Part shown: positions 29,322 through 51,133 of the stretch, one piece after another
How positions within the stretch are numbered: the stretch's first letter is position 1
Layout of the letters: each line of letters begins with the position of its first letter
Source of the DNA: a virus
Direction: 5' to 3' (one strand)
IMG/VR virus record: IMGVR_UViG_3300012985_000006
Span: 1 to 64,000 of that record
Length of the DNA stretch: 64,000 bases
The notes under the pieces: generated by a model
The model's input: the letters and a program-made list of their open reading frames with translations, nothing else
Told to the model about the DNA's origin: nothing
Database searches by the model: none
Program-made: the position numbers and the translations under genes

Positions 29322-29978
29322 TCAACGGCTGTAGTCGTAATCATCGGCATAGCGGCTGCCCCCGCTGTTCTTCAGAAGATCAATCAAAGTGGCGGCTTGA
29401 CGGATCGACAGTTTGCGAAGATCGTCTCGCGTGAACGGCCACTTCAAATCAGGGAACATCTTGGCGTAGGGTGCCCACTGTTCTGCACTACGAATCCTTG
29501 AAGTGAGGAACCCCAAATATTTGAGCTGAGGATCAGTCGCTCGGGGGCCGCCAGAAGGAACCGGTGCACTGGTGGACGGTTCGGTCGTCTTGGGGGTCTC
29601 TGGAGACTTGCTGCCGCTGGCATCCCAGTACTCAGGCTTTTCCTCATAAGCCTCAATTGCGTCTTCAATGCGGTTCTGAAGAGAGTTTTTCCAGCCCTGC
29701 GTTCGCTTGACGATGGGAGCCTTGCCTTTCATCAAAGGCCTGTTGGACTTGACACCCATCATCTGCACACGGATCGCGTCTTCCCCCACCCCGGCTCCCA
29801 TATCGGAGGACTTACGGATTGAGGTCCAAATCCTCAGATGGACCGCATCACTTAGTTGGAGGTCGTAATAGTACTCCCCTCCATTTGAGTGTCCTTTCTG
29901 AGGACGGAGCGCACGGAAGCCCCGCTTGAGAAAGGTTTCCATGTCTTGGAGAGTGACTTCAGTGTATTGAGCGGCCAT
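29322..29978 (-). CDS. Conserved protein coupled to the helicase, function unknown
   Basis: 218 aa, ATG overlapping the helicase stop (TGATG), so the two are translated together. Residues 1-115 form one domain with FLKRGFRALRPQKGH, a LRIWTSIRK strand, GVGEDAIRVQMMG and KAPIVKRTQGWKNSLQNRI. A Pro/Ser/Thr-rich linker (residues ~120-145) leads to a small helical C-terminal domain (DPQLKYLGFL, DLRKLSIRQAATLIDLL). The coupling to the helicase suggests that the product helps it, for example in DNA binding or loading. No direct evidence of enzyme activity was seen. Confidence 0.6.
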   Translation of the reverse strand: MAAQYTEVTLQDMETFLKRGFRALRPQKGHSNGGEYYYDLQLSDAVHLRIWTSIRKSSDMGAGVGEDAIRVQMMGVKSNRPLMKGKAPIVKRTQGWKNSLQNRIEDAIEAYEEKPEYWDASGSKSPETPKTTEPSTSAPVPSGGPRATDPQLKYLGFLTSRIRSAEQWAPYAKMFPDLKWPFTRDDLRKLSIRQAATLIDLLKNSGGSRYADDYDYSR

Positions 29979-32900
29979 CAGGCATCCATCCCATCATGAG
30001 GTTGCCAATCAACATTGCTTACGTCGAAAGCTTGCTTTTCATTAGGCTCTGCCGGCTTGATATTTTGACCCAAGTTGAGGCCGGCCTCGTACACGAATTC
30101 GCTAACTCCGCCTGCCTTGCCACCCACACTACTGGGGCAGACGATCGTCAAGTTCTTCGCTGCCCTCGTGATCGCCACGTAAGCCAGACGACGCTCGTCT
30201 TCCAACTTTTGCTCCACTTCCTCTGGAGGTGGTGGTTCTTCCCCTGGTTTGACGATCGGCACCATGGGGAATTTGCCGGCCGGCATAGCCACGAACACGG
30301 TAGGCCACTGAGCTCCCTTGGTCGAGTGACACGTGCCCAGATAGACACCTGGTGGAGGAGAACGCTTTTCTGGCGGCAAGGCGGACTGTTCCTTGTACCA
30401 CTTGGTGATGTCGGTACGTAGATCCTTCATCTTGGAAGCGTAGCGTTCCATCTTCTGCTTGAACCCCATGGGGGTGGTGGGCGGGTTCAGTTCATCGTCC
30501 TCATCCGTCGGATCGGGCAACGCCAACTGGTAGAGGAACGAAATGTTACCCAACCCTTGGGTGCTGTCTTCCTCGTCATCCTCATCTACCGCCTCGTCAT
30601 CGTCTGCAGAGGTGGAGTTTTTCAAGTCAGCCTGAAGAGACTCACGGAACGACTGTTCGACGAACGCCCCACCAACGATGCCCGTGCCTTTGAGACCCAA
30701 GATATCGTCAAACAGATTCTTGGTAGTGTAATCTGGGTCAGTAGTCAGGGCCTTCATTTCCTGCAAAGATTGGGCCAAGTCTTCGATCTTTTCTTCGAAC
30801 TTGAAGGCTTTTCCAGAACGGGTCAGTTTGGCCAAAGCGTCCACCAAGTGACGCACAAAGGACCGATCCTGAAGGGCCGTCATCGGATTGATCGACTTCA
30901 CGTCAACGTCTCGTTGACGTGCATAGGCAGAGAGTGCCGCTTCAACCGCCTCAGGCGCTTTCTTGGGGTCGGTCAAGAAGAATCGGCGAGGCTTGTTGAT
31001 CGCATTGCCCAACGCCTTCTGCATTTTGGTGAAGTCAGAACCAGTCACCAACTGCACGTACCCCAGCAAAGCAGTCGTCTCTGGAGACCCCAAGAAAGAT
31101 GATGCACCCTTACGGGCATACGGAACTCCTCGAATGATGCAAGCAGTCTCGTAGGCGTGAAGTTCCTTGTTGGTTCGGGTCAATACCGCGTGGTCTGTCA
31201 CATTGGCACCCAAGACGAGGTTCTGTTTGATGCCCTCTACGACTCCCAGAGCCGCCCCCGCCTCATCCATAGGAGTGACTACCTGAATGCTACCGGAACC
31301 ACGAACCTTCTGAGGGTTAGGCACCGATTCCATCTCAATCTGGCCCTTATTGTGAGCGATCAGCTTGTTGGCAGCATCCACCAATTCAGGTTCGCAACGG
31401 TAGTTGGTGCGGATTGAGCGGGTCTTCCAACCATCTTCCTCACCCATATTGATGAACAATTCGGAGCGAGCCCCTTGGAAGCTATTGATGGCCTGCTTAT
31501 CGTCGCCCACCACCCAGTAGGATTTGCCGTCAGATCCATCGGTCACGTGTCCAGCACACAGATCCAAAACCTCTTTCATGACCGAATTACGGTCCTGGGC
31601 TTCATCCACAATGATGTGGTCGTACATCTTCTGGATGGTGATTTGGACCCTGGGTTCACGCTTCAGGATCTTGAGAAAGGTAGACAACATGTCGGAGAAG
31701 TCGCCCAACGGGATGTTGTTTGGGCGCACCTTTGTCATGAAAGATTCGTAGCTCTTTGAATGGCAAACGGGTTTCCAACCAGGAATCGAACCTTTGAGGC
31801 CTTCGTACATCTCATACCAAAGAGCTGCATCCCTTTCTGAGGAGGATCGTGCTTTTGCGGCCGCTTCGAGGGGCGTAACGTGGTTTCCCGCCCATTGAGC
31901 TTTCAGCAATAAAACAGATTGAAGCTTCGGAATTGGTTTCTGTTTCCCGTAGCAATCCTCCCAAATATTCTGGACCGCATAACCGATCTTCTTACCGTCC
32001 CCAATGAAGCCGTTGGGGCCGTTCTTCAACTGTCCCATGGTGACCTTCTCAGCATTGGTGCCGTACTCACCAATGAAGCGTTTGAACAGAGAGTGCATGG
32101 TCCCTACACTCATCTGTTGGAGCGACTCACCGCCCACCGCTTTTCCAAGACGCTCTTTCAGCTCCTCAGAAGCCTTATTGTTGAAGCTTGTCACCAAGAT
32201 TCGGCTAGGTAGAACTCGACGTTCTTTGATCAGGTATTCGACACGAGCCACAACCGTAGAAGTCTTACCGCTACCCGCACCGGCCGCCACCCTCACTTTG
32301 CCATCCGTCAAAGCGGCGGCACGTTGCTCGTCGTCCAAGCGGCGCAAAGGAGTGGGGATGTTCTGTGGTTTGGACGGGTCACTCATCGCCGCAGTAGCGG
32401 CCGCTACCGCCACGCCAACCACTTCCGAACGAGTGGGAGGCTCATCAGATTGAGAATTGATCTCAAGCGATCGTCTGGCTGCGTTGGTGGCCTCTCGCTC
32501 AACCGTATCCAACAGTTCTGCTTGAGCCTCTTGAGATTTGAGCGATTCATCCGCGCCAGAAGCGGCGATCTGTTGCACCTGATGAATCACCAGTTCGGTG
32601 GAGGTTTCTCCAGCCTCTCTTGAGCCAGCGTCTACCGCACTAGGAGCGGCCTCTCCCGAACCTGCCACCTTGGCCGCCAGATCTATCCAAGCCCGCATAC
32701 GAGTATTTCGCATCGGCAAAGCGGCAAAAATATCGAGCGCACGATCGGCATCTTCCAACATCGACGCACTGATGGCTTCACGCACCTGACGGATGTATTT
32801 GGTGGTATCGAAGATACCCTTCATGGTCGAGGGACCGCCACGAGAAAGCAAGGTCCGGAACTGGAGGGCTCGTCTCGCCACTCCATTCGCGGTAGAGATC

Positions 32901-33169
32901 GAGATATTGATCGCCCGATTGAGCATCATCTTGTGGGTGGGCGAGGGCAAGTGATTGTCAAGGTAAGACTTGATCGAATCTAACGAATGATCGGCCAGAC
33001 GAAGGATGGTGACCCCTTTCCGGATCGTATCCCCTTCCAACTGGTCTTGGCCCGTCGTTTCCTCCGAATACCTCAGATAGGTATCCAGTGCGAACAGAAA
33101 GATCAAATACTCGGCTACTTGGAATTCGCCAATCAGCTCGTCTTCGCTCGTTTCAGCCCAACGTTCCAT
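29978..33169 (-). CDS. UvrD/PcrA-type superfamily 1 helicase with long N-terminal extension
   Basis: 1063 aa, ATG at 33169. Helicase motifs in order: Q-motif LDDEQRAAA (~278), motif I AGAGSGKTSTV (~296), motif Ia LVTSFNNKASEELKERL, motif II IIVDEAQD (~525), motif III VVGDDKQAINSFQGA, motif IV SIRTNYRCEPELV, motif V CHSTKGAQWPTVFV, motif VI LAYVAITRAAKNL (~1010). These are the ATP-binding and translocation residues of 3'-5' UvrD-like helicases. Residues 1-265 are an extra helical, Ala/Ser-rich region with no recognised fold. Residues ~835-935 include an acidic insert (STSADDDEAVDEDDEED). A strong terminator and its own upstream element separate the gene from the sheath gene, so it is probably expressed independently, for replication or repair. 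Confidence 0.93.
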   Translation of the reverse strand: MERWAETSEDELIGEFQVAEYLIFLFALDTYLRYSEETTGQDQLEGDTIRKGVTILRLADHSLDSIKSYLDNHLPSPTHKMMLNRAINISISTANGVARRALQFRTLLSRGGPSTMKGIFDTTKYIRQVREAISASMLEDADRALDIFAALPMRNTRMRAWIDLAAKVAGSGEAAPSAVDAGSREAGETSTELVIHQVQQIAASGADESLKSQEAQAELLDTVEREATNAARRSLEINSQSDEPPTRSEVVGVAVAAATAAMSDPSKPQNIPTPLRRLDDEQRAAALTDGKVRVAAGAGSGKTSTVVARVEYLIKERRVLPSRILVTSFNNKASEELKERLGKAVGGESLQQMSVGTMHSLFKRFIGEYGTNAEKVTMGQLKNGPNGFIGDGKKIGYAVQNIWEDCYGKQKPIPKLQSVLLLKAQWAGNHVTPLEAAAKARSSSERDAALWYEMYEGLKGSIPGWKPVCHSKSYESFMTKVRPNNIPLGDFSDMLSTFLKILKREPRVQITIQKMYDHIIVDEAQDRNSVMKEVLDLCAGHVTDGSDGKSYWVVGDDKQAINSFQGARSELFINMGEEDGWKTRSIRTNYRCEPELVDAANKLIAHNKGQIEMESVPNPQKVRGSGSIQVVTPMDEAGAALGVVEGIKQNLVLGANVTDHAVLTRTNKELHAYETACIIRGVPYARKGASSFLGSPETTALLGYVQLVTGSDFTKMQKALGNAINKPRRFFLTDPKKAPEAVEAALSAYARQRDVDVKSINPMTALQDRSFVRHLVDALAKLTRSGKAFKFEEKIEDLAQSLQEMKALTTDPDYTTKNLFDDILGLKGTGIVGGAFVEQSFRESLQADLKNSTSADDDEAVDEDDEEDSTQGLGNISFLYQLALPDPTDEDDELNPPTTPMGFKQKMERYASKMKDLRTDITKWYKEQSALPPEKRSPPPGVYLGTCHSTKGAQWPTVFVAMPAGKFPMVPIVKPGEEPPPPEEVEQKLEDERRLAYVAITRAAKNLTIVCPSSVGGKAGGVSEFVYEAGLNLGQNIKPAEPNEKQAFDVSNVDWQPHDGMDA

Positions 33170-33305: not shown

Positions 33306-36300
33306 TCAGATGCGAGCTCTGAGGTAGAACGTCATCTGGATGTACAAGAGCGGGAAGATTGGCTGGTACCAAGCTTCGAAGTCCATAACCGTCGGGTCGA
33401 TGGGGTTGATGGTGGCCGAGATCCCCATCCAACCACCGACGATCTCAGCTTGAACCAACTGCTTGAACAGGGCCGTCATCGAGACCTCAACCTCACTAGT
33501 GCGGCTAGCGAGGAACTTGGTACCGATGAAGCTGTCCAGAGCTACGCGGCTTTGCTGCTGAACGTAGTCGCCAATCTGAGTGACGGTCGGCAGACGCTTC
33601 AAGATGTCCGACATATCGGTCGTCAAACCTTGGCGGATACGGATCAAAGGATCCAAGTCCTCCAAGAGAGTGATGCCAGCGACCGCCGTTTGATTGGCCG
33701 TAATCGGATCCAAAATCCGAGGAATACGGGTGAACCCTTGGATGCGACGACGGGTGTAGGGAGTCGCCACATCGACGGCTGGTGAACAAGCCGCGCCCGC
33801 AATAGCGGCCGCGATGAACGAACCATCCACCAAAGTCTCGTAGCTGGCACCCAACTGATCCGAAAGCGTGATGACCGCACTGTCGGGGTAGAAAGCCATC
33901 ATACGCTTCGAGAGCAAGCTCCTGGCCACCGATTGAGCAGTGGTTGGAGTGGTGCCCGACGAGAACCCGACGAAGCCCATGCGTTCTGACTGGTTGCGCT
34001 CATTAGACTGAATTTCACAGTGCTGCATGAGGGCCGCGAAAACCGTGCTGCTTCCCGTTAGAGGCACCAACACATCCGGCTTGACGTTACCAGGCAGAGG
34101 GATCGAAAGCTCACTGATCGCTTCAATGAAGTCTTGATCGCTAGCTTGATTGGTGTTTTGAACCTTCAGCACCTGCTTGATACCCACCAACACGGCTCCG
34201 TTGAGGATCATCAGGTAGGCACCCAACGTTACCTTGTTCTCAGCCGAGAGAGGCCCGAAATTGGCCTCCACAGTCTTGAACTGTTGATAAAGTTTGGTCG
34301 AAAAGTCCTGCTTCCTGAAATTGTAGGTGACGAAGTAGAAGTCGCCTATCGCTGGTTCCAGTCCAGAAGGATTGAAAGTGTTGACAGTAGCGGTGTCGTT
34401 CACCCCAATACCAACCGTGTCGGTAACCACCGTTTCCAAACCTGGAAGCGACAAGTACGGAACTGCTGGATTGACCTTCCAGGTTGGGGACACTTCCAAG
34501 GTAAAGAAGCCTGAAGAAGTGTAGCTGCCGTCTGTGGCAGGCAGTACGGTGAAACGTAGCCCCGTCCTTGCATCTGTGTAGGTCTGACCTGGGATACCAG
34601 AACCAGCCGAACCGCTTGCATTGTTCGAGCTGACAGTGAACTTGTCCTGAGCATCAGCACCATTGTCACCGCTAGTTCCTGGAACGATTCCAGTTCCAGT
34701 AGTGGGGTTGAAGGCCGAGGCCGAACCACTGACAAATACGATGCTTGATGTTGCAGCACCGACCGTCAGAGACTCAATGGTCACATACTGTGAGCCATTG
34801 ATGGTGCTGACGTACGCCACACCGCGGGCCGAGAAGCCTGAGGTAGCGTTTAGGGCATCCACCACCTCAGAAGCCGCAACTAGTGTTTGGCTAGCTGTCG
34901 CATCATCAAGGAAGCCCAACACATCGTTGGCCGAACCATCCAACATCACAATGCTGGAGCTTGGATCCGCCACTGTGCTGGTTAGACGAATCTTGTTCAG
35001 GTTGCCCAAAGTACCCGCTGAAGCAACACCTGTCAAACCAGGGGTGCTGTTGATGGCGGTCACCACTGAAGAAGCCGTAACCGCGGCACCTGCTGGCAAG
35101 GTCGTGGTGTAGTCGATTCCGTTTAGACGGAAGGTCAACACATCGTTGACACCAGAGGTGATGTTGAACGGCCCTGCAATACCACCCAACATGGTGGCTG
35201 GCTTGTTGGTGGCTGTGGGAGTGCCTTGAGCCGATTGGAAGGTGCTGAATCCAAGCACATTCTCGACCGTACCTTGACGAATCGCCACAGTAGATGCGTT
35301 ATCAAAACCACCAGGCAGTGCGCCAGGAGTAGTGTACGATTTGATAACGAAGAACACATCACCGTTTGTACCGTTCACCTGAACAAAACTTGCCAAGGTG
35401 TTGGGAGCGGTGCCGCTGAAAGCGCCGTTGGCATCAATCGCTGCATTGATTTCACCAACAATTTGTGTTGGTGTTCTAGCGCCAGCCGTCAATGTCACCG
35501 CCACATTCACGCCATCGACCGTAATGTTGAAAACATTGGCGGGAGAGGCTGGAATGGTGATCGAATTCGATCCGCTGGTGGGGGTTCTGGCTGACACCAA
35601 GTAAGCCGGCACAGCTGTGGTCAAGTTGGTAACTAGGGCGTTACCATTGATGGTGGTTCTCCAGTTATTGCTGTAGGTCTGGAAGAACGAGTAAGGAGCT
35701 GCTCCTAGGTTGGTATAGATGGCATTTTCGGCCAAAGTAGACCCAAACGTCACAGTGACTGTTTCAGCAACAGGAGTGCCGGCGCCCGTGTGGAAGCCGT
35801 CCGTCACTTGTTCTGAACCGCGAGGCCATTGAACAATCTCAGAAAGGCCAGACTTGGTTCCGAAGCGAACCTGATAAAGGTTCTTGCCTGTTGTGGTATC
35901 AAGCACTTCGAACTGACCCGTACCAACCGGACCCGTCACCTTGTTGGTCAGGATGAACGTGTCATCCGTCAAACGGCTGTACCAGAAAGTCGCATACGCC
36001 TTGTGATCCGGGGGAACAGGGTTCTTGAGAGTGATCTTGCGATTCTCCCCATCAACCACCGTCACCACCGCCGCCGCACGGCCCAGCGCATCTACCAAAT
36101 CTCGGCCAGTGTGAACCGTCACCAAGTCAGGACGATTGGTATCCAGACCATTGCGGCCGTTCGATACTGCACCATAGACCGTTGCCCCAAGGGGCGTGTC
36201 ACGTCCGTTACCTGTGGTCGGCACCTCAGGTAGGAGGAATTGGTTCGAAGACACCAAAGCAGGGATGACCGTCGTATCCACGACACGTGTGGCTTCCACC

Positions 36301-37571
36301 GAGAAGAGACGATCATCCACCAAGGTGGGGAGGATCTGAACCTCATTGAAGGGGGTAGTGCCACTGGTGTGTTGAGCCGAAGAAACAACGAAGCTGCTGC
36401 CCCAGTGGATGATCGACACGTCCGGGCTCGGATTCGAGACCACGAAGTCTTGGCCTTGAATGTAGTCGTTACGACCTGCCGCGAAACCGCAACGGATCAC
36501 GTCCGTCACCAGTGTGTTGGGCAAGTAGTCGAATGTGTCCTGCCAGGTGTTGGCGAAGTAGGTCAATTTCACCGTCGACCCAGCTGCTGGAGCGAAAGGC
36601 AGGGTGACCAAACCGTTCGTACCGTCGACAGCCGACACCACCACTTGGACATTGTTGACCACCGCCACAACCTTAGTCGGGTCTGTGGTGGTGATACCGC
36701 CGTCCGTACCGTCTACGATTGGACGCTGAAATACGCGGAAGGTAGCGTTACGGTTCGTGTTCGTGTTGGGCGAGAAACCCAGCACACCGTTCGCGTTACC
36801 ACCACCGATCGACAATGAGCGGGCAGCTGTGAAGGTGAGGTGGTCACGTCCCTGACCGTCAGTCGAAACCGACACAGCCAAGCCTGACACGGCCGCAGCA
36901 TCGATCACACTCTTGAGGCCAACGGCTGTGTAGCTACCTGCCCCAAAGACCAACGTCTTGGGCGTACCATCTACCGAGAACACGAAAGTATCGGTCAAAC
37001 CAGTCACAACCTGGAAAGGAGCGTAACCTGGTGTGGTCAATGACGCGGCTACTGTGGTTACCTGGTTCGACACATCATCCGTGAAACTCGTGTCCGAACG
37101 ATGGAACCAATAGGTGCAACGAACGTTGTCTCCTGGTTGGGGCGGGATCTGGAGAAACACCGATCCACTTGCACCCTGAACCGACCCTACCGCTACTGGG
37201 ACGCCGTTGATCGTCACCGAGAGGGTCTTGATGTCGTTAGAGATCTTCCCAATCCCTTGCCCCGTCACAATGGGAGCGTTTCTGACGATGAACTGTGTTG
37301 ATGTCCCATTCGCCAAACCCAAGATAGGGTGGTTGGGGTTCGAGTCATCCACAACGAAGCTGGCGCTCACATCCTCATTGATGATCTGCTGATCCAGTCC
37401 TGCGCTAGAACCACGCACCAATTCGTAATCGGATTGAGTCAATTCCTCTTGACCCACCCCAACTTCCACTGGGATCTTAAGACCAACTACCAGATTTGCA
37501 GCATTGGCATCCGACAATGTACGGGTGTAGACGCCAGGGGGAACGTAAGTTGAGTAGGGGCCGATCGCCAT
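33306..37571 (-). CDS. Tail sheath protein, expanded to 1421 aa
   Basis: ATG 37571 with SD GAGG. The N terminus (PYSTYVPPGVYTRTLSD) is typical of contractile tail sheaths. The C-terminal ~320 residues carry the conserved core: GFVGFSSGTTPTTAQ, RMMAFYPDSAVITLSDQLG, GSFIAAAIAGAACSP, RRIQGFTRIPRILDP, LLEDLDPLIRIRQGLTTD and a C-terminal FPLLYIQMTFYLRARI. Residues ~60-1090 are inserted beta domains: three copies with a (T/A)(Y/F)WF/Y...DTF...NxVT pattern (~160, ~350, ~520) and at least three hook-IN-like modules ending in NGVLGF, ENVLGF and NDVLGF (~187-270, ~680-780, ~800-890). Known sheaths are about 350-950 aa (T4 gp18: 659), so this is exceptional; the inserts should project outward. The gene has a promoter-like sequence and its own terminator, fitting high expression. 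Confidence 0.93.
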   Translation of the reverse strand: MAIGPYSTYVPPGVYTRTLSDANAANLVVGLKIPVEVGVGQEELTQSDYELVRGSSAGLDQQIINEDVSASFVVDDSNPNHPILGLANGTSTQFIVRNAPIVTGQGIGKISNDIKTLSVTINGVPVAVGSVQGASGSVFLQIPPQPGDNVRCTYWFHRSDTSFTDDVSNQVTTVAASLTTPGYAPFQVVTGLTDTFVFSVDGTPKTLVFGAGSYTAVGLKSVIDAAAVSGLAVSVSTDGQGRDHLTFTAARSLSIGGGNANGVLGFSPNTNTNRNATFRVFQRPIVDGTDGGITTTDPTKVVAVVNNVQVVVSAVDGTNGLVTLPFAPAAGSTVKLTYFANTWQDTFDYLPNTLVTDVIRCGFAAGRNDYIQGQDFVVSNPSPDVSIIHWGSSFVVSSAQHTSGTTPFNEVQILPTLVDDRLFSVEATRVVDTTVIPALVSSNQFLLPEVPTTGNGRDTPLGATVYGAVSNGRNGLDTNRPDLVTVHTGRDLVDALGRAAAVVTVVDGENRKITLKNPVPPDHKAYATFWYSRLTDDTFILTNKVTGPVGTGQFEVLDTTTGKNLYQVRFGTKSGLSEIVQWPRGSEQVTDGFHTGAGTPVAETVTVTFGSTLAENAIYTNLGAAPYSFFQTYSNNWRTTINGNALVTNLTTAVPAYLVSARTPTSGSNSITIPASPANVFNITVDGVNVAVTLTAGARTPTQIVGEINAAIDANGAFSGTAPNTLASFVQVNGTNGDVFFVIKSYTTPGALPGGFDNASTVAIRQGTVENVLGFSTFQSAQGTPTATNKPATMLGGIAGPFNITSGVNDVLTFRLNGIDYTTTLPAGAAVTASSVVTAINSTPGLTGVASAGTLGNLNKIRLTSTVADPSSSIVMLDGSANDVLGFLDDATASQTLVAASEVVDALNATSGFSARGVAYVSTINGSQYVTIESLTVGAATSSIVFVSGSASAFNPTTGTGIVPGTSGDNGADAQDKFTVSSNNASGSAGSGIPGQTYTDARTGLRFTVLPATDGSYTSSGFFTLEVSPTWKVNPAVPYLSLPGLETVVTDTVGIGVNDTATVNTFNPSGLEPAIGDFYFVTYNFRKQDFSTKLYQQFKTVEANFGPLSAENKVTLGAYLMILNGAVLVGIKQVLKVQNTNQASDQDFIEAISELSIPLPGNVKPDVLVPLTGSSTVFAALMQHCEIQSNERNQSERMGFVGFSSGTTPTTAQSVARSLLSKRMMAFYPDSAVITLSDQLGASYETLVDGSFIAAAIAGAACSPAVDVATPYTRRRIQGFTRIPRILDPITANQTAVAGITLLEDLDPLIRIRQGLTTDMSDILKRLPTVTQIGDYVQQQSRVALDSFIGTKFLASRTSEVEVSMTALFKQLVQAEIVGGWMGISATINPIDPTVMDFEAWYQPIFPLLYIQMTFYLRARI

Positions 37572-37682: not shown

Positions 37683-38102
37683 TCACTCGTCTTTTTGTTT
37701 GGCCTGAATGGTTCTCACCTCTTGAGCCAAATTCTTACGACGTTCGATCAGTTCGGGAGTACCGCCCTCGTAATCGATGAAGTCTTTACCATTCTTTCGA
37801 ATCAAAGCGTGGGTCCCCACCTGTTTCCTGACCTTGGACTTGACCACTTCCCTAGCAGCTTGATCCTTCCACCTGGACTCAGCATCAACTCCTACCACCC
37901 TGTCAGCTGTTGGATAATCGTGCTTCGATACTCCTGAATTGGCAGGTGACTTGCCTCCTTTGGCGAAATCAAACCCAAAGGTTTCCCAAAGTCTAGGGGC
38001 CTCAGCTCCACAAGCAGGGCACTCATGAGTCGCATGGTCCCCCATCTTTAGGGTGCGGGTGAATTGTGTGCTACAGGCACATTCAAAACTGAACTTAGGC
38101 AT
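37683..38102 (-). CDS. FmdB-like zinc-ribbon protein
   Basis: 139 aa, ATG at 38102 (TGATG overlap, SD AGAGGA). Residues 1-45 form a zinc ribbon: FECACSTQF (Cys8, Cys10) and HECPACGAEAPRLW (Cys28, Cys31), as in FmdB-type small regulatory proteins that recur in phage genomes. The remaining ~95 residues are basic and helical (REVVKSKVRKQVGTHALI, ELIERRKNLAQEVR). In phages such proteins often lie beside head or neck genes and their role is not settled; DNA binding or a structural zinc site are both possible. It is the gene just before the sheath promoter. Confidence 0.7.
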   Translation of the reverse strand: MPKFSFECACSTQFTRTLKMGDHATHECPACGAEAPRLWETFGFDFAKGGKSPANSGVSKHDYPTADRVVGVDAESRWKDQAAREVVKSKVRKQVGTHALIRKNGKDFIDYEGGTPELIERRKNLAQEVRTIQAKQKDE

Positions 38103-39241
38103 CAGCCGATCCTCTCATAATCATCATCTCTTCTCTGAAGAATAGGGTGTGTTCTGAACAACACGTCGGAAGCAACAGGAGTGATACCTCCGGAATTAAT
38201 CTTGCTAATCACCAATGGAAGCGGCACGTGCACTTCCCAATCAGCTCTCAATTGCAGCGACATAGAGGCTTGGTAGAAGAAGTTCTCTCCCGTCTCATCT
38301 GCTATTTCCTCAGCCTCGCTGCCCATCGAGACATCTAAGATCTCGATTCCTTCGAATTCCAATTGACTCTTCTTGTCAGCCAACAGATACATGGTGGTCA
38401 GATCTGCGATCTCCTCCATCTGCATCGGATCCCTGGCAATCACATCGAAGTCAAAACTGACTTCGAACTTCCCGCCGTACGCCTCGGCAGCATCGATTCG
38501 ATCCTGGTAGACCACCACCGCCACCTTCTGTTTTGGGGCGGACCTTTTCCCAAAAGCCAACACTACCCCTGGAAGAGTGGTCCAATTGGCTTGATTCCAC
38601 TGAAACGCCACTGGCCCTATCGATTCTCCTGCCCACCTATAGTCCGCCGACACCTGTGTGTTGGCTGGCAAGATGGTGATGAAGGTAACCCTACCGGTAT
38701 CGTAATCTACCGTATAGTCCAACCCCTCTTTGAGAAAGAAAGAGTTGTTGGCATAGAGCCGCAACGTATTCTGAAGCGGCAGGTTTTCCAATTGAGCGTC
38801 TACTGTCATGCCCGCTCTAGTGACGATCAAGGGACGATCGATTACCGTATACATAGGATCGATGACGAAGAAGCCGTCTTCACCGTTGACCGTAGGAGCA
38901 GTCAGGATCTCCATCAAATAGACCCCAGGAGGAGTGGGCATCCCCCCATTCTTGGTCACTACCCTAGAATCCTCTCTTACCCATTCCAAAGGATACTCAG
39001 GTTGCCCCACATAGGCCAACATTACATGGCTTTGAACAGTGCCCACGTAGTTGTCCGCCGCCAGCTGCACCTTATTGGTACTGGACCCCTTGATGACGAT
39101 CCCGAATTGAGGACGTTCCTCAAACGAGAATCGGTTCTGAATGAACGGAACGATCTTGTTGTAGACAGGATGATTCGAAAAGCTGTCCTTCAGTTCAAGG
39201 ATGACTCGCCGCTTCAGGGGTCCTACCAAGTTGTAGTACAC
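38102..39241 (-). CDS. Possible tail terminator or neck protein
   Basis: 379 aa, GTG start with GGGAG-type SD about ten bases upstream. The N-terminal part starts with GPLKRRVILELKDSF; the middle holds beta segments (YTVDYDTGRVTFITILP, PPGVYLMEILTA) and the C-terminal ~120 residues (KFEVSFDFDVIARDPMQM, IADLTTMYLLADKK, YQASMSLQLRADWEVHVPLP) look like a tail terminator fold that measures a ring and caps the tube. Its place between the actin-like gene and the sheath supports a neck or tail-end role. The call is tentative. Confidence 0.5.
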   Translation of the reverse strand: MYYNLVGPLKRRVILELKDSFSNHPVYNKIVPFIQNRFSFEERPQFGIVIKGSSTNKVQLAADNYVGTVQSHVMLAYVGQPEYPLEWVREDSRVVTKNGGMPTPPGVYLMEILTAPTVNGEDGFFVIDPMYTVIDRPLIVTRAGMTVDAQLENLPLQNTLRLYANNSFFLKEGLDYTVDYDTGRVTFITILPANTQVSADYRWAGESIGPVAFQWNQANWTTLPGVVLAFGKRSAPKQKVAVVVYQDRIDAAEAYGGKFEVSFDFDVIARDPMQMEEIADLTTMYLLADKKSQLEFEGIEILDVSMGSEAEEIADETGENFFYQASMSLQLRADWEVHVPLPLVISKINSGGITPVASDVLFRTHPILQRRDDDYERIG

Positions 39242-39255
39242 TGGCCCACTCTCCC

Positions 39256-40284
39256 TTACTTATCTGATTCGTGTTCTTCAGAGGCGAGTACCAGCATGCC
39301 CTCCGCCACAGCGGTCATCGGATCCTTGGCGAGACGGATCTCGCTAATCTGGATCGGGAAGCGCTTCTTGTGAGATTCGAACTCTTCCTTGAAAATATCG
39401 AGGAAGCCGCCCGCTTTGGTGGTGCCGCCAGAAACGACAAACGGAATTGGGTCTGGTAGAGCGATGTCGTTCTTCACCTTCTTGAACTGTGCCGCCACAT
39501 TCTGAAGGGTGTAGTCAATCAGGCTCCTGACGTAGAGAACGATCGCTTGTTCTTCACGACCATTGGGTTTACGGAGGTCGATCCCCTTCTCTTTGATGGT
39601 GCACATCTGAGAAGCTGTCTTTCCAAGCGCCTTGGCCGATTGAGCGTCAATCCAGTCACCACCTCGCGCTAGAGCGAAATCCAAGGCCTTGTTGGCCTGG
39701 TAGGACAGGGCAATGTTCGCCATACCCGCACCGAAACTGACCGCCAAGCCGGAGAAGTTCTCCTCGGCACACTGGCTGTAGATGATTGCCATGGCTTCAT
39801 TCATCGGATGGGCGTGGTAGCCGAAGTCTCGGACGATCTTACGGAAGACTTCTGTGTGGAAAATCACGTCCTGAGAGGGGTCGTCGATCGGGGCCGCTGG
39901 CACGCTGTAGAAGCAGTGCTCACCGTCTTCCTGGGGATCGCCCAGCACTTGATTGATCAGCAGCCCCAACACCTCTTGAGCGTCGATTTCGCCAGCGGCA
40001 ATCAAGCCTCGGCTGAGGGGCCGTCGAGCCTCACGCTTGAACAGATTGGCCATCGTCAATGCCGAATCACCCAGCACCAACAAGGCTCCATCTGTCTCAC
40101 GTTCCACGTAGTCGACTTTGGACATTTTCAAGCTACGCTTTGCAGCTAGTTCTAAGTCCAAAAAGGCGTCACGCACTCGCTTGGTCACCACGCCACCATC
40201 TTTCGATCTGGCGGAAACGATGTTCATGGTACCAATGTCCAGACCGACACCTAGACTGACAGATTTACCTTCATCTTTTTTCAT
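39256..40284 (-). CDS. Actin-fold ATPase (MreB/ParM/DnaK superfamily)
   Basis: 342 aa from ATG 40284, which has SD AAAGGT seven bases upstream; a TTG at 40308 overlapping the previous stop is less likely. Actin-superfamily motifs are in order: phosphate-1 GVGLDIGTMNIVSA (~12), connect-1 NEAMAIIYSQ (~162), phosphate-2 GLAVSFGAGMANIAL (~179), and adenosine motif FVVSGGTTKAGGFLDIF (~284). Length is as for MreB/ParM. Such proteins bind ATP and often polymerise into filaments that position DNA or protein. It follows the Dps-like gene directly within the neck cluster. It could act in phage DNA positioning, capsid movement, or as an assembly chaperone; which one cannot be told from sequence. Confidence 0.85.
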   Translation of the reverse strand: MKKDEGKSVSLGVGLDIGTMNIVSARSKDGGVVTKRVRDAFLDLELAAKRSLKMSKVDYVERETDGALLVLGDSALTMANLFKREARRPLSRGLIAAGEIDAQEVLGLLINQVLGDPQEDGEHCFYSVPAAPIDDPSQDVIFHTEVFRKIVRDFGYHAHPMNEAMAIIYSQCAEENFSGLAVSFGAGMANIALSYQANKALDFALARGGDWIDAQSAKALGKTASQMCTIKEKGIDLRKPNGREEQAIVLYVRSLIDYTLQNVAAQFKKVKNDIALPDPIPFVVSGGTTKAGGFLDIFKEEFESHKKRFPIQISEIRLAKDPMTAVAEGMLVLASEEHESDK

Positions 40285-40304
40285 GTGTTTTACCTTTGGT
40301 TTTT

Positions 40305-40952
40305 TCAACGGAAATCGTAGGTCTCCGTTTGAGAACGTTGCTTGAGCAGATAGACGAAGGTCTCGTGCTTATCTGCAATGTCTTCCAACAGTTTGCTGAT
40401 ACCGTGACTCAGAGTACCGGCTGCCTTCATGGTGGCAATCAGTTGAGAAATGGCAGTCACACACGTGGCCTCGGCCCCCAGACTGATGCGAACCATGTCC
40501 TCGGGAGATTTGACCGGTCCCAACGCAACCAACAAGTCCGCCATAACGGTCGCTTGTTCGAATGCAGTGATGGTGGTTGAATCTCCCGACCCAATGATCC
40601 GTTCAGCCAATTGGTCAATAAGTTCGAGAGACTCGTTGTAGAGTCTCTCGAAAAGCAAGTGGTCCCCACTGAAGCTAACCCCTGAGGTGCTCCAGTGATG
40701 AGTTTGATGAAGCAAAGCCAACGCCTGAAGCATGGCCAACATCGAAAGCATCGTCCCCCCACCAGCCATCTTGACCGCCGAGGTCCTGACGATCTGTTTG
40801 ACTTCGAGTCTTTGATCCTTACCAAGCTTTACAGCCTCATAGGATTTTGGCAGATAGGGAGGGCCGTGCCGCAAATGATCGAATTGCGTAGGTTCGTGCC
40901 AGACTACACGAATGTTCTCCTGATGGGGGTCTTGTGCAATTCGCTTCAGCAT
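40305..40952 (-). CDS. Dps/ferritin-like protein
   Basis: 215 aa, ATG at 40952 with SD AGGGT. Residues ~78-125 match the Dps core: LHQTHHWSTSG, then FSGDHLLFERLYNESLE, then LIDQLAERIIGSGD. Residues that align with the Dps ferroxidase site are present: His86 (His51 of E. coli Dps), His98 (His63), Glu102 (Asp67), Asp113 (Asp78) and Glu117 (Glu82). The following helices (residues 125-205) complete a four-helix pattern. Residues 1-60 are an extension rich in basic and aromatic residues. Dps proteins form 12-mer shells that oxidise iron and bind DNA. The protein may protect phage DNA or serve as a ferritin-like virion component. The alignment was done by eye. Confidence 0.8.
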   Translation of the reverse strand: MLKRIAQDPHQENIRVVWHEPTQFDHLRHGPPYLPKSYEAVKLGKDQRLEVKQIVRTSAVKMAGGGTMLSMLAMLQALALLHQTHHWSTSGVSFSGDHLLFERLYNESLELIDQLAERIIGSGDSTTITAFEQATVMADLLVALGPVKSPEDMVRISLGAEATCVTAISQLIATMKAAGTLSHGISKLLEDIADKHETFVYLLKQRSQTETYDFR

Positions 40953-40987: not shown

Positions 40988-41590
40988 TCACTTCTTCTTG
41001 CCGCCACCACGTAGTTGACGGAGCTTAGAAGCTGGTCCAGAGACATCCCCATCACTAACTTGCTCAGTGATTTGGATTCTGGCCTCCCCCAAGTCCTGAC
41101 TCAGGTCTGGGAGAAACATGGGGGCCTCCCCACCCACCGCTTCGCTTACTGGACCAGTATTCTGACTTGCCGGCACATAACCCCCAGGTCCAGATACTTG
41201 TTGCACAATAGTCGTGGTTGGGGCGGCTTCTATGCGCCCCAAAGCAGACAGGACGTTGGTCATCTGTTGCTGGAGATTGGCCATCCCCGAATGTAGGTCT
41301 GAGTTGACCTTATTGGCCCGTTCCAGAGCCTCTTTGAGGCGAGCGTTCTCTAGTTCCAGCTGGGCCATTCTCTCAATATCCACGGCAGACTCCACTGGTT
41401 GACGTACGGTCACCGTGTCTAGTTTAAAAACGATCCCAGAATTGATGGCTCGATGAAGGTCTCTCGATCTGAGGTAGTCCTCCATCTTTATGAAGATCTG
41501 CTCTCGATGGGGGATATCGACCTTGATGTCTGGTACAAAGTGCCCACCCATAGTCAGACACACGACTGAAACTCCGCCTGAATCGCTCAT
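40988..41590 (-). CDS. Coiled-coil protein of the neck cluster, function unknown
   Basis: 200 aa, ATG at 41590 with SD AGAGA. The N-terminal ~65 residues are a small alpha/beta part (VVCLTMGGHFVPDIKVDIPH). Residues ~70-115 form a coiled coil (ERMAQLELENARLKEALERA), and the C terminus is Gly/Pro-rich with a basic end, LRQLRGGGKKK. No family recognised. It lies between the HK97-gp10-like gene and the Dps-like gene. Confidence 0.6.
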   Translation of the reverse strand: MSDSGGVSVVCLTMGGHFVPDIKVDIPHREQIFIKMEDYLRSRDLHRAINSGIVFKLDTVTVRQPVESAVDIERMAQLELENARLKEALERANKVNSDLHSGMANLQQQMTNVLSALGRIEAAPTTTIVQQVSGPGGYVPASQNTGPVSEAVGGEAPMFLPDLSQDLGEARIQITEQVSDGDVSGPASKLRQLRGGGKKK

Positions 41591-41591
41591 T

Positions 41592-42089
41592 TTATCTCTT
41601 TAGGGTATCTTGTAGGGTTTTCTGGAGCGCTCTCACCAGACGTCTCTTGATGACGGTTCGAGCAGCATCTCTCGCTTTGTCGATAATATGGGTAGATTCT
41701 CGTCGAGGGTGATACCATCGACCCCTAGCCATCGATCTGGGGGTGGCGGACCTAAAGATCAGTTCTCCTGTATCGAGGATGATTGGAATGGGCCGCCTAG
41801 CCTTGGTCAGCCAAGTCATTTGTTCCCTCTTGCGCCCCTCCAACAAGGGGAAGAAAGCGGGGTGAGTGGCGGTCACTATGAGGCTGCTCTCGTAGATTCT
41901 GGTCTTCAGACCCTTCTTCAAAGCCCTCTTGGCTCTAGGGGAAAAGGCGTATTCCTCAATCTCTCGTCGTATTTCTTCGAGGATTTGACGTTGAAGGGAC
42001 TTCAATACCTTCTTGGGCTCAAACTTATCGAGTGCTCCTTTGGGTACCAAGGGCTTGTAATTGATACGTATTTTGGGTAGAGCGATCAT
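41592..42089 (-). CDS. HK97-gp10-like neck/tail completion protein
   Basis: 165 aa, TGATG overlap with the upstream gene. It is basic and helical at both ends (KKVLKSLQRQILEEIRREIE; ARTVIKRRLVRALQKTL) with a central beta part (SLIVTATHPAFFPLLEGRKR, PIPIILDTGELIFR). This resembles HK97 gp10-type tail completion proteins, in which a GR-containing loop follows a HPAxxxxLExG-type segment. Such proteins act at the head-tail joint. Its neighbours are also of neck type. Confidence 0.55.
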   Translation of the reverse strand: MIALPKIRINYKPLVPKGALDKFEPKKVLKSLQRQILEEIRREIEEYAFSPRAKRALKKGLKTRIYESSLIVTATHPAFFPLLEGRKREQMTWLTKARRPIPIILDTGELIFRSATPRSMARGRWYHPRRESTHIIDKARDAARTVIKRRLVRALQKTLQDTLKR

Positions 42090-43444
42090 CAGTAAACGAT
42101 GTTAACCCATGTTTTGGTGCGGCCTTTTAGTTCCCGTTCATCCGGAATCTCAGGCTTATCAGTGATCTGAGCGGGAGAGTTTAGAGGAGGCACCAGTTCA
42201 GCCGCCTGGTTGGGCAAGAAGCGATTCGGCCCGTCAATCGGAACTCTGTACTGGATCATCTTCTCGTCCAGATGACCTATGTTGAAATGTTGTTGTAGCA
42301 ACATACCTCGGTTGGAGGGCATCCTGACTGGACCTATACTGTATCGCTCACCGTTGATCTTGACGATGAAGTCTCGCTGAGAAAGCAACGGACTGGATGT
42401 CGTCCAGACCTCGTACGAGTGCTCTACTGTGCGGCCTGTGTCTCGCTGACCTATCTTCCGTTCCGCATCGTCAGGGGCGAGGATGATGTCGTACGGCCCT
42501 TCATACCCGCCTATGACGCCCACCCCATAGCAGATGGTACAGTCACTTACAGGTTGGTGATGGGTGAGGGTATTGAAGCAAGGGCAAACAGGCCCAACCT
42601 GCTTCCGAATGAAAACTTTGACCCGCTCCCCACCCTGGTCAAGAATCCACCGATTCCGACGAACCGCTTCCCGCCACACCCAATCCACCTTCTCTAATTC
42701 GAAGGTGCTGGTGAGAGTGGCTCGGGCAAGTTGCGTCTCCAACAGCTCATGAGGATCTGCTGGGCCAGCAAGTGTGCTAAGCATCGTCCCCACGGTGGTG
42801 ACACGATAGAAGATACGCTGACTCAGGTCTGTTCTAACGAAAGACCTGTTGTACCGATAGGAGACCGTCACCACACTGTCAGGGCCTGGAACGATCCCAG
42901 GGTCCATCAGCTGAGTGGTGACGTTTGGATAGGGATTGGGGTCTATCTCCACCTCCCACGTCTCACCCGTCACTCGGGCCACTCGGGCCACCATCCCATC
43001 AATTCTCACCTCAACGTCAGAGGGTGTGTTGGCGGGGATGTTTTGAGAACCCTCCTTGACGATCGGGCCAAAACTAGTCCTAAAGACGTATCGAGGAGCG
43101 TTTCTTTGCGCGGCTACCGCATCCCCAAACATTACCCAATCGGTAACCTGCTCATCCTGAACCAACACATTGTTGGTCTGATCTCGCCAAAACGTGCCGC
43201 CCAGAGGATAGGGGTTGATCCTATCGTAGGGGCCAAATTCGGAGTCAAAGCTCCGATAAATGTTGACCCCACAGATCTGGAAATTACTGTTGACCGAAAG
43301 TTGGGAAGGGTCCGTCCAAGATAGGTCTACCACCCCCGGCTGATACCCACTCGTCATGAAAAGGTTGAGAGGTGCCGCGGGTTCAGCAACTTTCACCAAT
43401 TCGAGTGTAGGCGGATCGCGGTCTCGATTTGAAGCGTAAGGCAT
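42089..43444 (-). CDS. Head-tail connector-region protein with a cysteine cluster
   Basis: 451 aa from ATG 43444. An ATG at 43465 in frame would add seven residues but has no SD, whereas 43444 follows GGAGAGG. The N-terminal domain is fibronectin-like (PAAPLNLFMTSG, GVVDLSWTDPSQL, ICGVNIYRSFDSEFGPY, and a second part ending in RIFYRVTTVG). Near residues 287-305 lies a zinc-binding-type cluster, CPC then CTICYG, followed by GPYDIILAPDDAERKI. Zinc clusters with an APDDAER segment are seen in neck-type phage proteins, but I cannot name the family. It lies next to the gp10-like gene. A perfect hairpin covers the start region. Confidence 0.6.
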   Translation of the reverse strand: MPYASNRDRDPPTLELVKVAEPAAPLNLFMTSGYQPGVVDLSWTDPSQLSVNSNFQICGVNIYRSFDSEFGPYDRINPYPLGGTFWRDQTNNVLVQDEQVTDWVMFGDAVAAQRNAPRYVFRTSFGPIVKEGSQNIPANTPSDVEVRIDGMVARVARVTGETWEVEIDPNPYPNVTTQLMDPGIVPGPDSVVTVSYRYNRSFVRTDLSQRIFYRVTTVGTMLSTLAGPADPHELLETQLARATLTSTFELEKVDWVWREAVRRNRWILDQGGERVKVFIRKQVGPVCPCFNTLTHHQPVSDCTICYGVGVIGGYEGPYDIILAPDDAERKIGQRDTGRTVEHSYEVWTTSSPLLSQRDFIVKINGERYSIGPVRMPSNRGMLLQQHFNIGHLDEKMIQYRVPIDGPNRFLPNQAAELVPPLNSPAQITDKPEIPDERELKGRTKTWVNIVY

Positions 43445-43473
43445 GGCTGAATGGCACCTCTCCATTCAGCCAT
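43443..43473 (-). promoter_or_regulatory. 12-bp perfect inverted repeat with the SD in its loop
   Basis: ATGGCTGAATGG (43443-43454) and CCATTCAGCCAT (43462-43473) are perfect complements with a 7-base loop. In the minus-strand RNA the loop reads AGAGGUG, which is the SD of the 451-aa gene, and the 3' arm ends on its start codon. CTGAT/ATCAG (43474-43489, A6 loop) forms a further small hairpin just upstream. Confidence 0.65.
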
Positions 43474-45064: not shown

Positions 45065-48000
45065 TCATTCCCAACCATACTTGTTGACTCTAGGCGGAAA
45101 ACCCCCATTGGGATTCAACGCCAAAGCATCCAAAACCAGGAATCGTTGGTCCACCGTCTGGATAGGTGATTGAGCCGAATCTTGGATTTCCCATCTGATC
45201 AACCATTCGCCTGGTTGACCGTGTTCACCCGCCAAACCTATGACGTAGAACTCCCCTACAGCCCCATTGACAGCTTTCTGACGCCCTCCTACCATCATAG
45301 GGGCCCCAGACTTAGAAATCTGGTAGAGCCGGTAATAGACCGCCGCCGGCCCATACGGACCCGTCGCATCTGAAGTCCTGATACAGAGGTCCCCACGCTG
45401 AAGTTGCTGCATGTACCGGAAGCGTTTGACAGCGTTAGTATCCGCCGAGATGCTGGGACCGACCCCATTGTTAAGGATTCTGACGATCGTGTCGTCGAAC
45501 ACCGTAATCCCATCATCTTCGACGATTGAGAAATTGGATTCGGTGAAGATGACGATCTGATCCGAAACCTCAAGGTCATCCAAAAAGTTAAGGAAGGTCT
45601 CGATAGCAGCCTCAGCTCCATCCAGACAGCTGATAGAGTCCGGCTGAGTGTCTCTGACGTACTGGGTCTCCGCTAGCAAGACCTCAGAGATGTCCAAGGC
45701 GTCAAAAGCTGACCTACGGTACGAAGTTTCGGCCAACAGCGCGTCAGAGACGCTGATGGGGGCGTCTTCAACAACTGTCCCCCGCTCATTCTCAACGATC
45801 AACTGCTCAGTGGTGTCGATCAAATCCGTAGCGATGCTTCGGATGTAGTCGGTAGACGGGATCAGCTGTTCAGCTAGCTGGATGCTGTCTTGAAGTACTT
45901 TGACGTATTCAGACGCCAGGGTGCACTGGTCCAGACAGCTGATGACGTCATTGTTTGACCGGTTCTGGTCCAAACTTACGGCACGGCTATCCACAACGAA
46001 GATTGTGTCCAGAATCGTCTTTTCGTAGACCGAGGAGATTGAGCTCTGGTCTGAAACAACGATCGCATCAGAAACAGGGCGAACATAGCTGGTGTCTGGA
46101 ACCAACTGCTCGGACACTGTCACTGAATCAACCAGGAATCGGCCGAACTCTAGCGAGAGTGTATTTTGATCTGTGGCCTGAATCGTATCAGAGGCGGCCT
46201 TTTCAGAAAACAGAGATACAAGGGGAGAATCCGATAGGGTTACCGCATCCGCAGTCAAGCGGATGTAGTCAGTAGACGGGATCAGTTGATCCGTGATGAC
46301 TGCGGAATCGGCAACGAATACCGACAAGCCTTGGAACAGATCAACAATGGAGGAGTCGGTGAGGGAAATCGAATCCGACAGTAGGCGGCCGTACTCCAAA
46401 CTACGCAAGAAGGAGTCAGAGGTGCTGATTGTGTCGGAAGCCGAACGATCTTTATCAATGCTTGGGATCGTCTGATCCGCCAAAACTATCGAATCGATCG
46501 GATTTCTACCGTACTCAAACCCCAACAGGAAACTGTCAGCGGTCGTCACAGAATCTGAAAGAGCCAGGGCCTTCTCTAGACCGGCCGTTACAGCATCTGA
46601 GACACTGATCGTGTCTGAGCTGGTAGATTGAACATCAACAACAGTCGAGTCCAAAATGGCCAGCGAATCAGATATTGTCAGAGAGTAGACGGACGAAAGG
46701 AGCGTCTGATCTGTGACAACGATCGAGTCGTTAAAGAATAGGTCCGTCGCCTGGCTAGCTGTGGCTGAGACGTCATCCAGGATCTGGAGAGTATCGGCCA
46801 AATACCTCTGGTATTGAGAAGACAGGACCAACGAATCAGAGACGAGAATCGCATCTTGGGGGAAGGTTTTCTCCCTAAGGGTCTGATCCGATACTTGGAT
46901 CGTGTCGCTAGCCAGCACCCCAATCTCAAGGCTCGTGCTCTGACTGTCGACGAGCGTCACCACGTCCGAAATGAACGTCTTTTCTACGAGCAGTTGCTCT
47001 GAAGTTAGGATTGAATCTGTGAGGGTGCGGTTGAACGTAACCTCTGTGCTGCCTTGGTCCGTAGCCGCCAACGTATCCGACAAACTCTTGGCGTATTCGG
47101 ATGAGGTGCTGGTCAGATCAGTGACCGTAATACTGTCATTTAGGAACAGGTCTATCGATTGGCTGGTAGTAGCCGAGACATCATCGATAATCGACAATGC
47201 GTCAGAAGCCGTCAGGCTGTAGACGGAAGACAGGGTGGTCTGATCTGTGACTGAAACTGTGTCTTGAGGGAACGTTTTCTCTCTAAGAGTCTGATCTGTA
47301 ATAAGGATCGAATCAGACGTGCTGACCCCGTACTCGATGCTGGTAGCAGAAGTGTCCAGGATCGAGATGACATCCGTTAGAGCGGACTCAATTTCAGGGA
47401 ATGCGAAGTCAGACGTGACGATTGAATCTTGGATTGTCCTATCAAACTGAGAACTAGTCTGAATCGAATCCGACAGGACAATGGCATCCGATCCTATGAC
47501 ACTATACTCTGAGCCAACAATCGTCGAATCGGTGACAGTAACGCTGTCCTGTGGGAACGTCTTCTCTATGAAAGTCTGTTCTGCAATCGAGCAAGTGTCG
47601 GACAGCAGACGGCCGAATTCTGCCGATACCAAGATCGAATCAGAAGTGCTGATTGTGTCGGAGACCAGTCTGCCGTATTCGATAGACAGCAAGGTCGAGT
47701 CAGTCAGGGCCGCACTATCGGTAGATAGTGCGGTGTCGATCGTCTGGCCGATCGACACATTGTCTGTGACCGTTAGAGTATCGTTGGCAGAACGAGAGTA
47801 CTCCAAACTGATGACGGCAGTATCCGATACTGATACGCTGTCCTGAGGGAACGATGTCTCTCTTTGGATTTGATCGCTGACAGCAATAGAATCCGATCCG
47901 GTTCGACCGTATTCGATTGACAGGGCAGCAGAATCGGTGAGAGCGATCGAATCCGATACTCCCTTATCTACCTGATTACTCTCAGCGTCTGTGACCGAGA

Positions 48001-50650: not shown

Positions 50651-51133
50651 TCAGGTCACACGGGCGCGGTAGGTGATACGTAGTTTATCCGCCGTGGTCT
50701 TGTTGACGGCTGTGAACGTCGAACGAGACAAGGCCGAACCACCAGGGCTGGTGGGCGAGTTCATCACAACTACTTCACGGATGTTGGTGGCCGACTTGGT
50801 ACCAGCACCAGAAGCGTACGAGACGATCCACTGCATGGTGCGGGTGCCGCTCAACAGAGTGACGGCAGCGGCCGCCAAAGTGCCGGTCACAGGGGTGATG
50901 AGATTGGTTTGAGCGGAAGAGGCAGCCACACCAGAGGTGCCGATACGCATCCTGGTGAATGAGTGCGTGTTGAGACCCGTGCTCATACGCCAAATCTGGC
51001 GCTTGCCGGTGTTGACCACGAGATTCGGAACAACGCGCCGTTCCAACACCTCAGGGCCAGTCTTACCGTCACGAATCACTTCGATGATGTATACGCCCGA
51101 GGCGTTCAGTTCGTCATTCAGATTGTCTGACAT
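50651..51133 (-). CDS. Beta-rich virion protein
   Basis: 160 aa from ATG 51133 with a strong GGAGGAGA SD; a longer frame to 51199 only adds 22 residues inside the preceding gene. The N-terminal part has SGVYIIEVIRDGKTGPEVLE and RRVVPNLVVNTGKRQIWRM, a pattern common in small phage head or fibre proteins that bind at a surface. The C-terminal part has strands (RTMQWIVSYASGAGTKSATN, IREVVVMNS, KLRITYRARVT). The gene is the last before the strong terminator at 50569. Family name not certain. Confidence 0.65.
   Translation of the reverse strand: MSDNLNDELNASGVYIIEVIRDGKTGPEVLERRVVPNLVVNTGKRQIWRMSTGLNTHSFTRMRIGTSGVAASSAQTNLITPVTGTLAAAAVTLLSGTRTMQWIVSYASGAGTKSATNIREVVVMNSPTSPGGSALSRSTFTAVNKTTADKLRITYRARVT

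Follow-up and report, generated by a model that had tools for sequence, protein, structure and literature searches.

The window (the whole stretch of DNA analysed, 64,000 nucleotides, part of a 142,489-base virus record) contains at 39,256–40,952, on the minus strand, a gene for a Dps-type mini-ferritin (DPS) and, next to it, a gene for a volactin-family actin-like protein (ACT). The minus-strand order is g296, two 96-aa genes, g458, g165, g200, DPS, ACT, g379, Zn139 and a 1421-aa sheath-like protein; coordinates are collected in Table 1. Read from the TTG at 40308, ACT overlaps DPS by 4 bases; an in-frame ATG at 40284, with AAAGG upstream, gives a protein of 342 aa and is the likelier start, and for this start the 20-base gap given in the first-pass annotation holds. 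A promoter and terminator scan gave no site between DPS and ACT, the counts being close to those of shuffles. Of the window proteins tried, 16/18 are encoded at 100% identity (one in part) on a 308,895-base contig (L002), the other two lying beyond that locus.

Table 1. Features of the DPS/ACT locus (window coordinates; residue numbers refer to the encoded protein)
Feature	Position	Strand	Evidence
1421-aa sheath-like protein	33306..37571	-	phrog_2839 (tail sheath) in 1 of 16 relatives, 3.9e-23; conserved order
Zn139, small protein with zinc-ribbon-like N-terminus	37683..38102	-	Zn_ribbon_8 1.2e-6, under its cut-off; conserved order
g379, possible tail terminator, the gene next downstream of ACT	38102..39241	-	phrog_123 in 1 of 20 relatives, E 0.003; conserved order
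ACT, volactin-family actin-like protein, 350 aa from TTG	39256..40308	-	PF25216, 248.3 bits; model resembles MamK, BeeR, MreB
ACT adenosine motif, residues 292-296	39421..39435	-	G294, G295 in 59/59 rows
ACT phosphate-2 motif, residues 190-198	39715..39741	-	Ser191 in 59/59 rows, cellular volactins too; MamK has Asp there
ACT phosphate-1 motif, residues 22-29	40222..40245	-	D24, G26, T27 in 59/59 rows
DPS, Dps-type mini-ferritin, 215 aa	40305..40952	-	Pfam Ferritin above cut-off; model resembles Dps structures
DPS residues 86-117 with presumed ferroxidase ligands H86, H98, D113, E117	40602..40697	-	all four invariant, 58/58 rows
DPS N-terminal tail, residues 18-35 (W...P...FD...GPPYLP)	40848..40901	-	pattern in cassette Dps
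g200, coiled-coil-like cassette protein upstream of DPS	40988..41590	-	conserved order; no informative family match
g165, possible neck/tail-completion protein (165 aa)	41592..42089	-	phrog_5 (tail completion/Neck1) in 1 of 22 relatives, E 0.019; conserved order
g458, probable virion structural protein	42089..43465	-	phrog_1004 (virion structural), E 2.9e-4; conserved order

Beyond the tabulated matches, g458 also matched phrog_2806 (unknown function; E 1.3e-5), and the window copy of the sheath-like protein gave no match to the sheath family. Profile searches against solved structures gave weak matches without clear meaning for g379 and g165 and nothing for the sheath-like protein and g458; a baseplate hub match (1.3e-6) was obtained at 13263–15440. 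The placing of the pair between neck genes and the sheath gene stands as to gene order, which is conserved; the names of the neighbours are weaker, those of g379, g165 and the sheath-like protein coming from matches in single relatives. Three further genes of the window are recorded here: 45065–49201 encodes a 1378-aa, highly repetitive Ser/Thr/Asp-rich protein with a phrog_321 Neck1 match (8.2e-12), of which no single stretch passes alone and which may stem from the repeats; 29978–33169, directly after the sheath-like gene, encodes a UvrD-type helicase, found in a similar place in several relatives; 51114–52985 encodes one protein with methyltransferase and glycosyltransferase matches, whose relative in L006 follows the sheath-like gene.

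DPS was matched by Pfam Ferritin (E 1.4e-10, 41.7 bits; cut-off 24.5) and by phrog_3636 (8.7e-13). Its AlphaFold2 model (pLDDT 87.4) was compared with structure databases; all 35 Foldseek matches with E ≤ 0.001 are Dps-type entries, and in a second structure comparison Dps chains gave the best Z of 17.0 (rmsd 2.2, 139 aligned), mini-bacterioferritin being tied at 16.7. The B-C helix of the Dps type is present in the model (130–144, between 94–121 and 150–178). The four invariant residues of Table 1 are presumably the Dps ferroxidase ligands, assigned by Listeria Dps; at the fifth ligand position, E102, E or D was found in 48/58 rows. Values of dN/dS of 0.10–0.22 (6 pairs, synonymous divergence being high in several; the Dps pair of L023/L024, read in a wrong frame, left out) indicate purifying selection. 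DPS is probably an active mini-ferritin, as judged from its conserved residues. Two related proteins (L007:4509-5417 and L014:5027-5926) carry an extra C-terminal domain of ca. 100 aa.

The N-terminal tail of DPS is of a type confined to cassette Dps; the typical form is W-x-[D/E]-P-x-x-[Y/F]-D-x(4)-GPPYLP. The pattern was found in 60/63 distinct cassette Dps (56/63 with a stricter pattern; the window itself, L001, the duplicates L018 and L019 and Dps cut at a locus end not counted) vs 0/15 other phage Dps; it was found in 0/8 Dps lying far from the actin in the sister clade described below (7 distinct) and in 0/15 Dps of a second phage lineage, the last set partly overlapping the 15 other phage Dps. 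GPPYLP was present neither in other ORFs of the viral loci examined nor elsewhere in the window. The tail is conspicuous in an alignment whose columns average 35% identity and therefore points to a binding, probably docking, function. Its coincidence with the cassette position is no independent proof, since tail and place seem to have been gained together once. Only some Dps proteins bind DNA through a basic tail. Here the net charge of the N-terminal part, taken as a whole, is acidic in 30/41 rows, neutral in 5 and basic in 6, the window DPS (net +4) being among the last; gathering of DNA by a basic Dps tail is accordingly somewhat disfavoured.

ACT is a member of the volactin family with an actin fold. 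Pfam Volactin PF25216 was matched with E 1.7e-73 (cut-off 35 bits) over profile positions 3–321 of 321; the sequence alone gave no match among solved-structure sequences, and a profile of 59 relatives matched MamK at ca. 1e-9. The AlphaFold2 model (pLDDT 93.9) gave in the second comparison the MamK filament 5ljv as best match (Z 28.8, rmsd 2.8, 294 aligned, ca. 19% identity), followed by BeeR (Z 27.1, rmsd 3.5, 303 aligned) and MreB (Z ca. 25.6). Actin and Hsp70-type chains score Z ca. 24–25 (Hsp70 ca. 24.8), only a few units under MamK, so the actin fold alone does not prove a filament. Structure prediction, proposed in the first-pass annotation as a check, has thus confirmed that an actin-fold protein and a Dps-like protein are encoded side by side.

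The nucleotide-binding residues of volactins were all retained in ACT and its relatives: besides those of Table 1, E171, G193, G195 and N198 are present in 59/59 rows, cellular volactins included. By alignment with MamK, the phosphate-2 Asp of the actin superfamily is replaced by Ser191. The Haloferax row carries Ser as well; the Haloferax volactin forms dynamic filaments according to the part of its description available (PMC10869688), so this exchange need not abolish turnover. Within the family such filaments in cells are known for H. volcanii only. At the position aligned to MamK A278 a hydrophobic residue was found in 59/59 rows; the structure-database entry for MamK A278D is titled non-polymerising. 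Values of dN/dS of 0.04–0.12 (7 pairs, synonymous divergence being high in several) indicate purifying selection on ACT.

Conservation of the neighbourhood was read from 82 viral loci, namely the best 80 of 264 viral ACT relatives from a profile search plus two more (other lists of relatives: best 80 of 172, of 256 and of at least 572); profiles of the cassette genes were built from these same loci, and adjacency was taken to mean a DPS that ends no more than 1.5 kb ahead of the actin frame. In this set (best 80 of 264 plus two), at least one of g458, g165 and g200 lies upstream of actin in 67/67 loci with more than 2.5 kb upstream, and at least one of g379, Zn139 and the sheath gene downstream in 78/78 loci with more than 2.5 kb downstream. 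DPS stands directly before actin in 46 of the 67 loci and not in the other 21; after removal of near-copies the figures are 56/56 (upstream), 40/56 (DPS adjacent) and 66/66 (downstream), and with other limits (L015, L164 and L165 included) adjacency was counted in 45/69 loci. Locus L165, outside the 82, is a contig filed under a Thermoplasmata MAG with an actin of the same clade; over 7.8 kb all of the downstream genes are missing. From the DPS stop to the nearest possible actin start, a choice that favours short gaps, ≤50 bases were measured in 54/63 distinct adjacent pairs, Dps-query loci included. Gene order kept in related phages indicates more than chance.

In the large records (251–619 kb) ACT was found once in 19/19 and DPS once in 17/19; in the two others (L062, a 412 kb record, and L087, a 308 kb record) the actin cassette is present and Dps was detected nowhere. 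Among 21 records without adjacency (20 of the 29 loci without Dps, plus L016), Dps lies elsewhere in 8; in LR745208, which looks like the same phage as G009, it is ca. 142 kb from ACT. Both are therefore single-copy genes of most of these phages; only actin is tied to the cassette, since it keeps its place without adjacent Dps and Dps sometimes lies elsewhere. An obligate pair of neighbours was rejected on these counts.

A quick tree of 105 ACT rows was calculated. It splits 85 cassette-type rows from the cellular and second-lineage rows (SH-aLRT 97) and places the 63 Dps-adjacent rows on one branch (support 99), together with one truncated row and L062, which has no Dps; in the sister clade actin keeps its cassette place without adjacent Dps. 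Adjacency is thus a trait of a clade; the actin query supplied 48 of these 63 rows and the Dps query, by which adjacent pairs are favoured, the remainder. Two changes of adjacency are needed with truncated rows set aside and three if they are kept; this fits one gain and one loss, although counts of changes cannot tell gain from loss. Long branches were seen for L016, L171, L194 and a few others.

Relatives of ACT outside the cassette were sought in genome contigs (best 80 of 256): two phage-like ones at 53–54% identity come first, followed by Omnitrophota (40–42%), a Thermoplasmatales MAG (41%) and haloarchaea (36–40%). None of these 80 loci, the two phage-like ones included, gave a DPS profile match beside the volactin; a weak Dps match (24–52 bits) was obtained in 3/8 cellular genomes. 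One Omnitrophota MAG (L166:9538-12010) has tandem volactin-family genes (276 and 266 bits), of which the second is extended by ca. 150 aa at the N-terminus, and a ParA-like ATPase gene near; the tandem may have some relation to the MamK/Mad28 pairs known from magnetotactic bacteria.

A second phage lineage (L160:13867-14871 and L252–L331) holds a volactin (229 bits) whose neighbours include genes for a DNA methyltransferase and a DNA polymerase; its relatives number at least 572, of which the best 80 were read. In these 80 loci g458, g165, g200, g379 and the sheath gene were found in 0/80, and Dps lies 2–6 kb upstream of volactin in 12 of the 34 loci longer than 16 kb. This second meeting of Dps and volactin is the strongest argument left for a functional link between the two. 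Since volactin stands here among replication genes, ACT may have a task that is not bound to virions. Records with Dps outside the cassette gave an actin match in 5/12, and a collection of 50,697 phage records gave actin in only two, both uncultured.

Known phage cytoskeletons are of two kinds: the tubulins of jumbo phages that form a nucleus, and the actins of a small number of phages and prophages. For comparison, the volactin of Haloferax volcanii (VolA, HVO_2015) shares with ACT the match to PF25216 over the whole length and the phosphate-2 Ser; it acts in cell shape, to follow the accessible part of PMC10869688, whereas ACT is phage-encoded and belongs to a virion cassette. MamK of magnetotactic bacteria, the closest structure, is a cellular protein with Asp at phosphate-2. 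AlpC of the Corynebacterium prophage CGP3 is a phage actin with a co-transcribed partner, AlpA, which links DNA to AlpC filaments, and can be likened to ACT/DPS; AlpAC is induced early and serves replication (PMC4446434, in the passages available), whereas the ACT gene lies among virion genes and its partner is a ferritin whose adjacency is not constant. PhuZ of phiKZ-like jumbo phages forms a cytoskeleton which transports capsids and sets the position of the phage DNA (PMC9067925, text available in part); PhuZ is a tubulin and ACT an actin, and the likeness is a proposed analogy only. A PhuZ spindle in the same phages was considered and set aside: tubulin PF00091 gave 0/21 records at E ≤ 0.001, a search in which a tubulin more divergent than that of phiKZ could be missed, as the phiKZ control itself was found at 2.6e-8, under the family cut-off. 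Dps/ferritin-like enzymes of Gratiaviridae and Lactobacillus phages were read by their authors as oxidative-stress genes; the accessible parts of these papers mention no actin neighbour or such tail (PMC8008677, PMC6669764).

In a full-text literature search, with most subscription papers outside its scope, neither a phage volactin nor a Dps–actin pair was found described. Phage volactin is absent from the accessible text of PMC12619734, PMC10914622, PMC12363816, PMC4870245, PMC7950403 and PMC5348500; PMC7162821 names PhuZ, and the whole word 'actin' is absent from it. Phage actins (AlpC) and phage Dps are each known already; a description of a phage volactin was not found in the literature searched, as far as its text was available.

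The reading preferred here, held tentatively and with doubt slightly outweighing belief, is that ACT serves as a cytoskeletal protein in late virion assembly or positioning, and that DPS is a ferroxidase recruited once to the operon and provided with a docking tail. ACT belongs to the virion-building operon that huge phages of one clade share, and would be produced along with their neck and tail proteins; its late expression is suggested by gene position only. In the infected cell it would polymerise into dynamic filaments driven by ATP, and these may move or hold capsids, tails or packaging sites during head–tail joining. DPS would have come once, in one clade, to the place directly upstream of actin; it would dock to a partner by its tail, oxidise and store Fe(II) and, by removing iron and peroxide, may protect particles or phage DNA, either where assembly takes place or inside the virion. 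For the cytoskeletal part speak the PF25216 score, the closeness of the model to the filament-forming MamK and BeeR, the fixed cassette place (67/67 and 78/78 loci, best 80 of 264 plus two), slow evolution, the hydrophobic residue at MamK A278 and the lack of a tubulin match in the 21 records; for the DPS part, the invariant ligands, the tail, the short gaps and the single tree branch. Against the reading stand the Ser at phosphate-2, the weak neck labels, the 2/19 large records in which DPS is missing and L165, an actin apart from the downstream cassette genes. The assembly motor, or positioning role, which the first-pass annotation had offered for ACT may apply and lies close to this reading.

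A more far-reaching version, in which the volactin of a neck–tail operon would be the actin-based counterpart of the PhuZ spindle and, in one branch, filaments or the nascent neck would bear a ferroxidase cage, docked through a peptide, as a shield of particles or DNA against iron and peroxide while assembly proceeds, is regarded as unlikely. It is also somewhat doubtful that ACT forms no filaments and acts, as a monomer or small assembly, as an actin-fold assembly ATPase or chaperone or as a virion component at the head–tail joint. Its position strictly inside the neck/tail cassette, the fold shared with Hsp70 and a slow evolution like that of the sheath-like protein (relatives 57–75% identical to the window's) would agree with such a role; the volactin family, whose studied member polymerises (PMC10869688, as far as accessible), the filament subunits as closest folds and the volactin kept away from neck genes by the second lineage argue for filaments instead.

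As for DPS, it could be a stress gene placed in the operon by chance and working apart from actin and neck, in line with the sister-clade records that have Dps elsewhere (8/21) and with the oxidative-stress interpretation of other phage Dps-like enzymes in the text available (PMC8008677, PMC6669764); the place before actin, retained across 63 rows of a single branch and lost in one, and a specific tail only in cassette Dps, make this rather improbable. The working pair of the first-pass annotation was partly supported: the two folds and the conserved neighbourhood stand, the obligate adjacency does not, and the mostly acidic Dps tails speak against gathering of phage DNA by a basic tail. Neither of the two results that the annotation had named as refuting (homologues never adjacent in related phages, folds unsupported by structure prediction) was obtained. 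An adaptor–actin pair in the manner of AlpA/AlpC (PMC4446434, in part), with DPS binding phage DNA and ACT filaments gathering or positioning it before packaging, is highly unlikely; the short DPS–ACT gaps and the Dps near volactin in the second lineage would suit it, while it is opposed by the acidic tails, by the actin that keeps its place without adjacent Dps in 21/67 loci and by two large records with actin and no detected Dps. A working link of some kind is favoured by the occurrence of both genes, once each, in 17/19 large records; an obligate DNA-gathering pair is disfavoured.

In many huge phages the operon that builds the virion has as a constant component an actin akin to a cell-shape protein of archaea; another, separate lineage of phages holds a volactin of its own. 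If ACT polymerises, it would make up a widespread phage actin system. The partner of the tail peptide of cassette Dps would reveal by what route a ferritin cage entered phage assembly.
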